From positions 62,001 through 126,000 of the forward strand of contig JAFXSR010000012.1 of assembly GCA_017525505.1 (NCBI GenBank): DNA of 64,000 nucleotides, given 5' to 3'. Below the pieces are notes generated by a model. The model did not search any database. It saw only the letters and a list, made by a program, of their open reading frames with translations, and was not told the origin of the DNA. Made by a program: the position numbers and the translations under genes. The stretch comes from Bacteroidales bacterium (GTDB taxonomy: Bacteria > Bacteroidota > Bacteroidia > Bacteroidales > WCHB1-69). Positions 40,811 to 47,653 of the stretch are shown in pieces; position 1 is the first letter of the stretch, and every line of letters starts with the position of its first letter.

Positions 40811-40918
40811 AGTGCCATTGTTTTAAATTTTCTGCAAAATAAAAACATACATATGCCAAATTATAGCATAGGTGTCTTATACTGAAAAAAGTTGACACTT
40901 TTTGGAGCAATACCGAAT

Positions 40919-41961
40919 ATGAAAATGAAGAAAAATACACGAACAACGAGGGTGTACAACCCAGACCTCGACGAGTACGAATGGAGAGAGGTCGAGACAG
41001 ACAAGTATGTTTTTGACGAAACAGACAAAATTGCGATAGTGCGTGAATACCACGAGCGAGGTTGCCCGGCATCGGAGATTGTGGCCAAGTACCACATCAG
41101 CAGTGCGGACTGTTTGGTTATAGCAGGCAGACATATTACAAGCGTGACGACGACAACGACTTCAAGCCGCTGGCACTGGAGCCGCTGATAGTGGAGCGCG
41201 TCAAGGACTACCGCAGGGAGAACCCGAGGCTGGGCAGCGTCAAACTATGGATGATACTGAGGAGACTGTTTGATGAGACCGGTTGTTTTCCCGGAAGAGA
41301 CGCCTTCATTGAGCTACTGCGTCGCCACGGCCTGATGGTAAAAATCCGAAAGCGGAAACACTATGTCACCACGGACTCAAACCACAACTACCGCAAATAT
41401 CCCAACCTAGTCAAAGGGGTGCAGGTATATGCCCCGAACCGGATATGAGTGAGCGACATCACCTACGTGGAGACAGAAGAGGGCGTGTACTACCTCTCTC
41501 TAGTCACTGACCTATATTCCCATAAAATTGTTGGCTGGTCCATCGGGCCAACACTCGACACCATATATCCGCTGGAGGCGCTGCGCATGGCCCTTGCTAC
41601 GCTACCCGAAGGCGACGCACCCTACCTTACCCACCACTCCGACCGCGGATGCCAGTACTGTAGCCGCACATACGTGGACACCCTCAAAATCAGGAAGATA
41701 CAGATCAGCATGACACAGAGCGGTGACCCTCTGGAAAACGCTGTGGCCGAACGTGCCAACGGAATACTGAAGTCAGAGTGGCTCTATCACATGGATCCGC
41801 CATCAGAGAAGGAATGCAAGAGTGTCGTCTCGCACATAATCGACTTTTACAACAACGAGAGACCGCACATGAGCGTCGGCTATCAGACACCGTCTGAAGC
41901 ACACTGTCAGAGCGGGTTACAGAAAAAAATGCTGGAAAAATCCATGGGAGAAGCCGCCTGA
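40919..41961 (+). pseudogene. IS3-family transposase, orfA/orfB remnants
   Basis: The orfA part (40919-41188) retains only the helix-turn-helix start (DKIAIVREYHERGCPASEIVAKYHISS) and then runs out of frame. The orfB part is in another frame (from about 41105: CGLFGYSRQTYYKR) and continues to 41961. The expected coiled-coil half of orfA is missing, as if deleted at about 41100. Within orfB an in-frame TGA at 41446-41448 sits where the family has Trp before VSDITYV. The DDE residues survive on both sides (SDITYV, HHSDRGCQY, GDPLENAVAERANGILKSEW). Confidence 0.85.
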
Positions 41962-41976
41962 TACCCAAATTATGAG

Positions 41977-41984
41977 TATCTTTG
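41977..41984 (+). promoter_or_regulatory. Outward-facing promoter box inside the IS3-like element
   Basis: TATCTTTG matches TAnnTTTG and points right, out of the element, towards the AAA ATPase gene 300 bases away. Confidence 0.4.
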
Positions 41985-42037
41985 CAACGCCAAAAGAAAA
42001 CTCACTCGGGTTTGTCCACTGGCAATGAAAAAATGGA

Positions 42038-42179
42038 TGTCAACCGAATCAGTGAAATGGCATGTAAAATGTAAACCTATACAGGGATAGTGTAAACCTG
42101 TTCAGTGATATGAACGAAACAATGTAAACCAATTTAGTTTAACCTTCCCAATTCTGTCAACCTTTTTCAGGGAAAGTCA
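42038..42179 (+). repeat. Five phased copies of a TGTmAACC-N4-CAGkGA motif
   Basis: Direct copies start at 42038, 42070, 42091, 42123 and 42155: TGTCAACCGAATCAGTGA, TGTAAACCTATACAGGGA, TGTAAACCTGTTCAGTGA, TGTAAACCAATTTAG and TGTCAACCTTTTTCAG. The start-to-start spacings are 32, 21, 32 and 32 bases, close to 3, 2, 3 and 3 helical turns, so all copies face the same side of the DNA. The last copy is the right terminal repeat of the IS3-like element. The set is likely an array of protein-binding sites, for transposase or a repressor. Confidence 0.8.
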
Positions 42180-42206
42180 TTCTTTCCATAGGGATTTCAT
42201 ACATGT

Positions 42207-42269
42207 AGCATTTGAAAAAGTTTTTTTTTTGAAAAAAAAGCATTTGAAAAAGTTTTTTTTGTATCTTTG
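42207..42269 (+). promoter_or_regulatory. Direct repeats and promoter for the AAA ATPase gene
   Basis: AGCATTTGAAAAAG followed by a T-run occurs twice, at 42207 and 42239, exactly 32 bases apart. TATCTTTG at 42262-42269 is a good -7 box 18 bases before the ATG at 42288, and a TTTG at 42243-42246 lies inside the second repeat. Confidence 0.6.
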
Positions 42270-42287
42270 CCAAACAATTAATAAGAT

Positions 42288-43499
42288 ATGACAATGGAAT
42301 ATTCAGATGTTAAAATATTGTATGATAACTCAATACGAAAAATATACAATGTAAATACAGATTTCAAACGCTATCTTTATCCAACGATAAATTGGAATAA
42401 TCGATTGATAGGTATCAAGGGCGCGCGAGGTGTAGGGAAAACCACCCTTGTCTTGCAGCACATAAAGGAGACTTTCAAGGATGTGGAGAAGGTGTTGTAT
42501 GTCTCAATGGATGACCTTTGGTTTACCTCACATTCTGTTATGGATTTGGTGGATTATCATGTAACACATGGGGGTACGTATATTTTTATGGATGAGATTC
42601 ATCGGTATGACCATTGGCAGACTTTGATTAAAAATATATACGACCATTATAATGACCTGCATATTGTTTATACGGGGTCTTCCATGTTGGAACTGGATGC
42701 GAAGGAGGGAGACCTCTCTCGCCGGTTACGCTCATACGAGTTGTTCGGTATGTCGTTTCGGGAGTTTCTGTGGTTTGAAGGTATAGCACAGCTACAAGCG
42801 GTGACTTTGGAAAAATTACTGCAAAAACACCTTCGGCTGGCATTGGAGTTGACCTCTAAAGTGAAAATAATTCCGTTGTTTGAGAAATATCTCAAATGTG
42901 GGTATTATCCCTATTATGCGGAAGAAGGGGATGGCTTTTATCAACGTTTGCAAGGCACAATCCGGCAGGTGCTGGAATCCGATTTGCCTGCTGTGGAGGA
43001 TATCTCGTTTGCCACCATTCAGAAAATAAAAAAAATGCTGATGATACTGGCCCAGCGAGTGCCTCAAACACCCAAGATGAGCGAGTTGTATGCCCAATTG
43101 GAAACAGGGCGTGACCAAGGACTGAAAATGCTTCACCTGCTTGATCGTGCAGGTTTGGTGTCCTTGCTGAGTTCTGAGGCAAAATCCTTAAAACAGCTGT
43201 CAAAGCCGGACAAAATTTATCTTGGGAATCCGAATCTGATGTACTGTCTTTCCCAAAACATTGACACAGGCACGCTTAGAGAAACATTTTTCAATAATCT
43301 GCTACGTGTGGCACATTCGCTGGTGCTACCATCTAAAGGTGATTTTCTGGTGGATGAAAAATGGCTGTTTGAGGTAGGTGGAAAAACGAAGGATTTCTCG
43401 CAGATTAAGGATATTCCCAACAGTTTTTTGGCTCTTGACGGCATTGAGTTTGGTCAAGGCAACCGTATCCCCTTATGGATGTTCGGGTTGTTGTATTAG
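42288..43499 (+). CDS. AAA-type ATPase with DUF4143-like C-terminus
   Basis: A 403-residue protein (start at 42288, or 42294). Walker A is GIKGARGVGKTTLVLQH (residues about 42-58) and Walker B is YIFMDEIHRYDHW (about 97-109). YTGSSMLELDAKEGDLSRRLRSYELFGMSFREF is the sensor region typical of the AAA_14 family. The C-terminal part (about 250-400) fits the winged-helix and nuclease-like DUF4143 region (LDRAGLVSLLSS ... LFEVGGKTKDFSQI). These proteins are common, usually solitary, and of unknown role. It is flanked by decayed elements and ends against an ORF6N remnant. Confidence 0.85.
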   Translation: MTMEYSDVKILYDNSIRKIYNVNTDFKRYLYPTINWNNRLIGIKGARGVGKTTLVLQHIKETFKDVEKVLYVSMDDLWFTSHSVMDLVDYHVTHGGTYIFMDEIHRYDHWQTLIKNIYDHYNDLHIVYTGSSMLELDAKEGDLSRRLRSYELFGMSFREFLWFEGIAQLQAVTLEKLLQKHLRLALELTSKVKIIPLFEKYLKCGYYPYYAEEGDGFYQRLQGTIRQVLESDLPAVEDISFATIQKIKKMLMILAQRVPQTPKMSELYAQLETGRDQGLKMLHLLDRAGLVSLLSSEAKSLKQLSKPDKIYLGNPNLMYCLSQNIDTGTLRETFFNNLLRVAHSLVLPSKGDFLVDEKWLFEVGGKTKDFSQIKDIPNSFLALDGIEFGQGNRIPLWMFGLLY

Positions 43500-46356: not shown

Positions 46357-47653
46357 TAAATGTTAATACAAAAAATCGATTTCCAATTGTCCGTCATCCA
46401 CGTCCTCTTCCTGTCTGTGCTTGAAAAGTTCGCGCATGTTGTCTTTGACCAAAAGGGAACTTCCAAGGATGCGCATGACCTCGAAGACGGGTCTGTCCAG
46501 CTTGAGGTCGTGCTCGATGATGGCAACGAGACAGTACGTGATGATGGCGACGTGGATCTGTATGCGCACAGCATTCTCGGACTCGCCCCAGAACCTTTTG
46601 ACGCGGAGATGCTGTTTGATCCATTTGAAGAAAAGTTCCACCTGCCAGCGGTAGCGGTAAAGCAGTGCGATGTCCTTGGCAGAGAGATAGAAGTTATTGG
46701 TGTAGTAAATGAACGAACGTCCGAGGTCAGCTGCATAATAAACGATTCGTCTGATCTGCGACGGATAGTTGTTGAAATTGCGTTTGCCAGTGAAACGGAT
46801 GGTCTGGTCAAGGAGTACACCATCCTCTCCATCAAGAAGGTTCTCGCCCGAAAGGACCTCATATTCAGGCTTTCCCTTTTCCCGTATGATGAAGAAAGCC
46901 CCGCACAAATGGATGGAGAAAAGCCGTGCAAGGTCGAAATAGCCCCGGTCAAACACGTAGCAGGCCGACGGCTCATAGGTGATGCAGTCCATGAATTTCG
47001 TGTCGTGGACAGCGGCGTTTGTGATTCTGTAGAAGATAGGGATTTCAGTGGCGATGTCGATTTGTGTATGGACCCTGATGCCGGACTTTGTGCTTCTGAA
47101 GTGTGCCCAAAGGAAGAGGGACATGCAAAGGTCAATGGTGGTGGAGTCAACCGCATAAAAGCGCCCATGCAATTCAAATTCCTTGGTAAGGCGCCTTTCC
47201 TGTGCAAGGAATACCATAAGAAAAGCGTATTCCTCGAATATATGTGGGTCGCGGAGCATGTTCGCTTTGGAGAGCATGTTCCTGTTGGCGGGAGTTTCGC
47301 CGAGGCCAAGATGGTAGGATCGTTTAGCATGTGCAGCAGTTATGTCGGTGAGTTCCCTGAGGGTTCCGCATCCCAGCAGTTGCCCGAATATGAGCGTGAG
47401 CAGATGATTCCAGTGGGAAAAAGACCATTTCTGGGTTTTGTCGGGATACTTCAACACAATTCTTCTGAACTGCCGTTGCGGCAGAAAGCTCACGATTTGA
47501 GCGAAAACATACTTTCCAATGTGCATCTTTGTTCCATATTTGATACGGGTGCAAAGATGCAAATTTCAAATCACGGACGATATATTTCAATTCTAAGTAA
47601 TTGTGCATAAAGTATATAATAGTAATTTTAAGAAAATTTAAGAGACACTAGTG
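46341..47653 (-). mobile_element. IS4-family insertion sequence (1313 bp), intact
   Basis: Perfect 16-bp terminal inverted repeats (CACTAGTGTCTCTTAA on the left, its complement on the right) enclose one transposase gene. The 9-bp target duplication CATGCATCT is present at 46332-46340 and 47654-47662. The perfect repeats and duplication, and the clean interruption of the DUF5618 gene, show a recent insertion. Confidence 0.93.
46363..47526 (-). CDS. IS4-family transposase with DUF4372 N-terminus
   Basis: About 387 residues from the ATG at 47526 (MHIGKYVFAQIVSFLPQ); an in-frame ATG at 47562 adds 12 residues. An N-terminal DUF4372 DNA-binding region (about 1-75) is followed by the DDE domain: Asp in FYAVDSTTIDLCMSL, Asp in CYVFDRGYFDLARL, and the Glu in the YREK-type segment YRYRWQVELFFKWIKQHL. 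Length and motifs are complete, so it is probably active. It is transcribed opposite to the gene it interrupts. Confidence 0.92.
   Translation of the reverse strand: MHIGKYVFAQIVSFLPQRQFRRIVLKYPDKTQKWSFSHWNHLLTLIFGQLLGCGTLRELTDITAAHAKRSYHLGLGETPANRNMLSKANMLRDPHIFEEYAFLMVFLAQERRLTKEFELHGRFYAVDSTTIDLCMSLFLWAHFRSTKSGIRVHTQIDIATEIPIFYRITNAAVHDTKFMDCITYEPSACYVFDRGYFDLARLFSIHLCGAFFIIREKGKPEYEVLSGENLLDGEDGVLLDQTIRFTGKRNFNNYPSQIRRIVYYAADLGRSFIYYTNNFYLSAKDIALLYRYRWQVELFFKWIKQHLRVKRFWGESENAVRIQIHVAIITYCLVAIIEHDLKLDRPVFEVMRILGSSLLVKDNMRELFKHRQEEDVDDGQLEIDFLY

Follow-up and report, generated by a model that had tools for sequence, protein, structure and literature searches.

Phased repeats resembling the terminal inverted repeat at the right end of an IS3-family relic from a Bacteroidales genome and of its relatives

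Few families of insertion sequences in bacteria are as large as IS3, and how these elements choose the end at which the initial, asymmetric cut is made is a matter of current interest. Phage Mu (MuA) and Tn7 (TnsB) have several transposase sites per end, in numbers that are unequal between the two ends, and IS21 has the helper IstB. Here we describe a decayed IS3-family element in a 64,000-nucleotide stretch of a Bacteroidales genome (contig JAFXSR010000012.1; the whole stretch is called the window in the following). Its right end carries five direct copies of the motif TGTmAACC, spaced near whole helical turns, which are candidate sites for the proteins of the element itself, OrfA and OrfAB. 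Many related elements from gut bacteria share this lopsided right-end design, which was unseen in the well-known family members checked (IS2, IS3 and IS150 of E. coli K-12).

With its OrfA/OrfB organization, DD35E spacing, A-run before G at the gene overlap (in L011), TG..CA ends and 3-bp duplications in relatives, the element group resembles the IS150-like members of the IS3 family. The account of IS2 describes the right end as the sole donor, OrfA as a repressor of transcription and the joined ends as a strong promoter (PMC3299598). In IS2 this junction promoter is divided between both ends, whereas the right end described here contains a promoter box in full. Dimers of the IS911 transposase bridge the ends, according to published work. 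The ends of IS21 (IstA) are built of multiple transposase repeats, L1/L2 and R1/R2 (PMC10122671). Additional end repeats are described for Tn7, and multiple transposase sites for phage Mu. IS21 has two repeats at both ends, whereas here up to about six are found, at one end only and together with an IS3-type enzyme. Unlike the present elements, Mu and Tn7 use other transposases and are larger, multi-gene elements; the likeness is one of end layout, and no family relation is claimed.

In K-12 the distance from the OrfB stop to the right terminus is 26 bp in IS150, 11 bp in IS2 and 30 bp in IS3B, which leaves no room for an array, whereas here 116–458 bp separate the end of the OrfB match from the right terminus and hold a promoter box and the phased array. 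The pattern of a single site per end with little DNA after OrfB, which typifies the known members checked and is not part of the definition of the IS3 family, is thus absent here. A first, sequence-only reading of the window had remarked that IS3-type ends are not generally described with such arrays. In searches of the open literature on IS3 and IS21 ends, arrays and outward promoters, which did not extend to subscription journals or ISfinder, no description of such an array was found. No array of three or more copies was seen at 17 further IS3 loci from this order, one of which (L100) had two hits; this control is a rough one, the inverted repeats being weak or not found for several of these loci.

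The array in the window and in relatives

The five copies lie on the + strand with starts 32, 21, 32 and 32 bases apart (Table 1), and the coordinates, spacings and orientation given in the sequence-only reading were all confirmed. The core reads TGTCAACC in copies 1 and 5 and TGTAAACC in copies 2, 3 and 4. The motif proposed earlier, TGTmAACC-N4-CAG, describes the array after a refinement: the four internal copies read TGTmAACC-N4-YAG, and the terminal copy has one extra base between the two blocks. Copy 5 falls within the right arm of the inverted repeat. The left end, as had been noted, has one copy only; it is in reverse orientation within the left arm. Exact TGT[AC]AACC is found on the + strand of the window only in these five copies and twice on the − strand, and when the 10 kb around the array were shuffled 300 times with a first-order Markov model, 0.33 copies were obtained on average and no more than two clustered within 142 bp. 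In the 2.74-Mb genome TGTMAACCNNNNYAG has nine exact matches, four in the array and five that are scattered; with one mismatch allowed, 10 matches were found in the window versus 3.0 expected, the four exact ones all in the array. A random genome-wide spread of the motif, which would have spoken against the array, was thus not observed, the matches to TGTMAACCNNNNYAG outside it being few and unclustered.

The element is present as a single copy in its own genome, and the array was therefore tested on relatives. Genomes of the same genus mostly yielded right-end scraps of 55–83 bp together with two left-end scraps, and relatives from other species were therefore used. Genome and viral contigs, each scanned once with OrfB as query, gave 82 loci with 44–84% identity, of which 79 were analyzed; L084, L086 and L088, further copies in the same Chitinophaga genome, were left out. 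A plasmid search for relatives gave one short Hymenobacter match only. With a right-end profile the right terminus could be located in the window and in 71 relatives, while the other eight of the 79 (L025, L043, L069, L081, L082, L085, L087 and L091) had no usable right end. The 72 right ends were reduced to 49 non-redundant ones, less than 80% alike across the last 160 bp and mostly from Bacteroidota. Copies were counted within 180 bp inside the terminal copy by means of the generic core G[TA]NAA[CAG]-N5/6-[CT][ACT]G; this motif was loosened after the first arrays had been seen, and the coding, reverse-strand and shuffle controls share the loosened form.

The 49 right ends contained 133 internal copies, compared to 13 in coding DNA taken as a control and 18 on the opposite strand, and Markov shuffles of the same stretches gave 15.7 copies on average and 25 at most. 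Three or more internal copies were present in 27 right ends, two in 10, one in 7 and none in 5. The search for the array in other elements, proposed at the outset, thus gave a positive answer, and on these sequences the array is a property of the element group and not of the window alone. In the OrfB tree, all 20 members of the branch that includes the window have three or more copies, and a branch of 15 elements named AGT after its motif type has zero to four. The DNA between the copies differs among diverged relatives while motif and phase are kept. An origin by chance, or by a tandem duplication that a single dead element underwent recently, for which only the single and broken state of the window copy could be invoked, is negligible in view of this conservation in diverged relatives; chance as such is ruled out by the Markov shuffles together with the recurrence.

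Helical phase and match to the inverted repeat

The distances between internal and terminal copies cluster at 32, 53, 64, 85, 95, 106, 117, 127 and 138 bp, corresponding to 3, 5, 6, 8, 9, 10, 11, 12 and 13 helical turns. Over the 49 right ends a phase concentration of 0.74 was obtained at a best period of 10.5–10.6 bp, and the spacing near whole helical turns first seen in the window is thereby extended to the relatives, where the phase is kept while the actual distances vary from element to element. When each of the 43 distinct distances was counted once, the concentration was 0.59 (Rayleigh p ~3e-7); this meets the multiple counting of related elements, though not fully.

The array is confined to the right end, the 40 left ends holding 10 internal copies in total, which is near background. 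Its motif type follows that of the inverted repeat of the same element. Elements with TGT-type inverted repeats have 77 internal copies, 56 of them TGT and two AGT, and those with AGT-type repeats have 39, 26 of them AGT and one TGT (Fisher 2e-18, shared descent uncorrected). Since AGT is a single branch, the terminal and internal sites have changed jointly at least once, which would be expected if one protein reads both. Because the internal copies change type together with the inverted repeat, they are most likely binding sites of OrfA/OrfAB, for which we consider them candidates. Two options had been offered from the window sequence, a loading array for the transposase or the operator array of another regulator. 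The former is the better supported by the relatives, the phase, the restriction to the right end and the match to the inverted repeat, and the latter is disfavored by the co-variation.

Several observations weigh against this attribution. A sister branch in the OrfB tree (L041, L042, L047–L049, L057, L061 and L065) has zero or one copy, and such IS3 elements can therefore do without the array. The AGT elements form one clade, so that the co-variation perhaps reflects a single evolutionary event. The minor types CGA, TGA, CGT and GGT (seven elements, 17 copies) mostly lack an exact match to the terminal type. In most internal copies of TGT type, position 4 has A where the terminal copy has C, and the spacing is off by one base. 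Taken alone, the AGT elements gave a best period of 15.55 bp, because spacings of around 32 are compatible with 15.5 as well as with 10.6. Finally, the roles in loading and autoregulation are suggested by analogy.

In four array-poor elements (L042, L046, L048 and L065), a motif copy at the left end faces the left repeat just upstream of the transposase start. This inverted pair is possibly a left-end operator that replaces the right-end array.

The outward promoter box and possible roles of the array

Between the OrfB stop and the right terminus, the sequence TAnnTTTG, which corresponds to the Bacteroidota promoter consensus (TAnnTTTG / TTTG; PMC7366714), was found in outward orientation in 39 and in inward orientation in 10 of the 49 right ends, with 2.4 expected from mononucleotide shuffles. 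Only one of the 40 left ends has such a box. A TTG is present 22–23 bases upstream of the box in up to 14 of the 39, and 120 of 125 motif copies, from 36 elements, lie between the predicted promoter box and the right terminus. If active, the box could switch on genes adjoining the insertions. In the AGT branch the predicted leader forms a hairpin in which 9 of 16 pairs changed on both sides and 96.9% of cells are paired (eight sequences), a pairing that none of 500 shuffles reached. Strong hairpins at the predicted start of the outward transcript were seen in L016, L017, L019–L021, L028, L050, L072 and the L045–L078 group. The leader hairpin could be a leader stabilizer or a small RNA.

We consider it probable that the five repeats are sites for the element's own OrfA/OrfAB, on one face of the helix and at the right end only, with a loading and self-regulating function that is modeled on known systems. 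Several protomers of OrfA/OrfAB, which have one helix-turn-helix and one predicted coiled coil apiece, would bind next to one another on the array and load the transposase at the right end, which the copy-out step would then preferentially use as donor. After excision as a circle, this end would abut the left one, and the outward promoter would read via the array into orfA. Protein on the array would in turn limit further transposase synthesis in a negative feedback. The position of the array between the outward box and the right terminus would fit self-regulation by OrfA. With many sites at the right end and one at the left, this natural subgroup would allow end choice, cooperative loading and self-limitation to be tested directly, and the multi-site end design of Mu, Tn7 and IS21 would exist, or have arisen again, in simple IS3 elements. 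It is conceivable, though doubtful, that the right end as a whole acts as a circle-specific switch, in which promoter, structured leader and phased row of sites tie expression to the circle, to cooperative shut-off and to the end of the first cut. If true, polarity and the control of copy number would be governed by a single DNA module, and the leader RNA may have an independent function.

The array may also serve solely as an operator at which OrfA represses the outward or circle promoter, with no part in the transposition complex. The location of nearly all copies between box and terminus speaks for this, as do the 39 of 40 left ends without TAnnTTTG and the description of IS2 OrfA as a repressor (PMC3299598). 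We nevertheless regard it as rather unlikely, since in many elements the nearest internal copy is three turns from the terminal repeat, with which the array is continuous, and since no TAnnTTTG box accompanies the three phased copies of L035 (assigned to Parasutterella, Pseudomonadota); on its sequence, L035 speaks for a role of the array beyond this promoter. A right-end region that acts mainly as RNA, with an outward transcript in which the repeats matter together with the structured leader, would be in line with the compensatory changes in the AGT hairpin and the strong hairpins that follow the box in several other members. It is improbable in light of the helical phasing of about 10.5 bp, which is a property of DNA; moreover, the window copy has the box and no strong leader hairpin, and an Rfam search of six loci gave nothing at the gathering threshold except a tRNA. 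Very improbable, finally, is the binding of a host or neighbor regulator, for instance the protein of the adjacent AAA_14 ATPase gene. This gene starts 108 bp from the right terminus and its paralogues often have phased repeats upstream, but those repeats are different and gene-specific, and the motif of the array tracks the element's own inverted repeat in elements beside unrelated genes. A host-regulator array was rejected on this ground.

The relic, its family and its neighborhood

The copy in the window is broken but has kept its right end intact. It is regarded as a relic because the OrfA/OrfB junction has been lost by deletion, a stop lies within OrfB and no target duplication is visible at this copy. 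Its inverted-repeat arms are imperfect, with 74% complementarity. The reading frame exceeds the cut-off of the IS3 model NF033516 with one stop inside, and Pfam searches gave no match for the OrfA remnant or for the N-terminal remnant of OrfB.

Table 1. Coordinates of the IS3-family relic and its right-end features in the window
Feature	Position	Strand	Evidence or remark
IS3-family element, decayed copy, ~1.3 kb (relatives ~1.5–1.8 kb)	40873..42179	+	inverted repeats, rve/rve_3 matches
Left inverted repeat with one motif copy in reverse orientation	40873..40906	+	left-end model, 40.1 bits
OrfA remnant (helix-turn-helix part), runs into internal deletion	40892..41188	+	list of open reading frames; N-terminal part resembles OrfA of intact L011 by eye
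OrfB N-terminal remnant	41062..41448	+	list of open reading frames, compared by eye with OrfB of intact L011
OrfB catalytic part, divided from upstream part by in-frame stop	41449..41961	+	PF13683 (rve_3) 2.7e-17, PF00665 (rve) 2.2e-15
Outward Bacteroidota-type −7 box (predicted), TATCTTTG	41977..41984	+	203 bp from right terminus
Array copy 1	42038..42054	+	−117 from terminal copy; TGTCAACCGAATCAGTG
Array copy 2	42070..42086	+	−85 from terminal copy; TGTAAACCTATACAGGG
Array copy 3	42091..42107	+	−64 from terminal copy; TGTAAACCTGTTCAGTG
Array copy 4	42123..42139	+	−32 from terminal copy; TGTAAACCAATTTAGTT
Array copy 5, terminal copy, within right inverted repeat	42155..42172	+	
Right inverted repeat	42146..42179	+	right-end model, 36.7 bits

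Family membership was tested on intact relatives. OrfB scored 240 bits against NF033516 (cut-off 160, exceeded by L011 and L013), and the DD(35)E signature is present with D-61-D-35-E spacing in OrfB of L011, L013 and L090. The HTH_Tnp_1 match of OrfA was above the cut-off in L013 and L090 and below it in L011. In L011, OrfA and OrfB overlap in different frames, and an A-run before G at this place is a candidate AnG slip site. The relatives have TG..CA inverted repeats, and identical 3-bp flanks were seen by eye in 16 of 44 rows, some of which have wrong or cut ends. These target duplications place the array inside the mobile unit in those elements. The transposase matches IS3, and no second gene of the IstB type was seen by eye among the open reading frames of L011, L013 and L090.

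The same-genus loci L002, L003, L004, L007 and L008 are solo right-end scraps of 55–83 bp that preserve the terminus exactly; no transposase match lies next to them. L003 and L004 apparently share one flank, and left-end-only scraps (e.g. L005) are rarer. A second transposase gene (DDE_Tnp_1 with DUF4372) lies at 46363–47562 of the window, about 4 kb from the IS3 relic.

The AAA_14 gene beside the right end occupies positions 42288–43499 of the window. Among near relatives, 7 of the 21 nearest right-flank genes encode AAA_14 ATPases (right flanks of L010–L035, L038 and the window, 42179–42288), compared to no more than one of 39 in the distant groups and to one of the 38 left flanks (Fisher 0.002); two of the 21 are recA by sequence (L033 and L034). 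The source genome contains 28 AAA_14 ATPase genes above the cut-off (L124–L151), often with gene-specific repeats upstream of a promoter box that are spaced by about 22–23, 32–34 or 53 bp (window 42207–42260). Upstream self-repetition at p<0.02 was found for 9 of these 28 genes versus 1 of 40 control genes of the window, and each AAA_14 paralogue may, as judged from these repeats, have its own phased operator.
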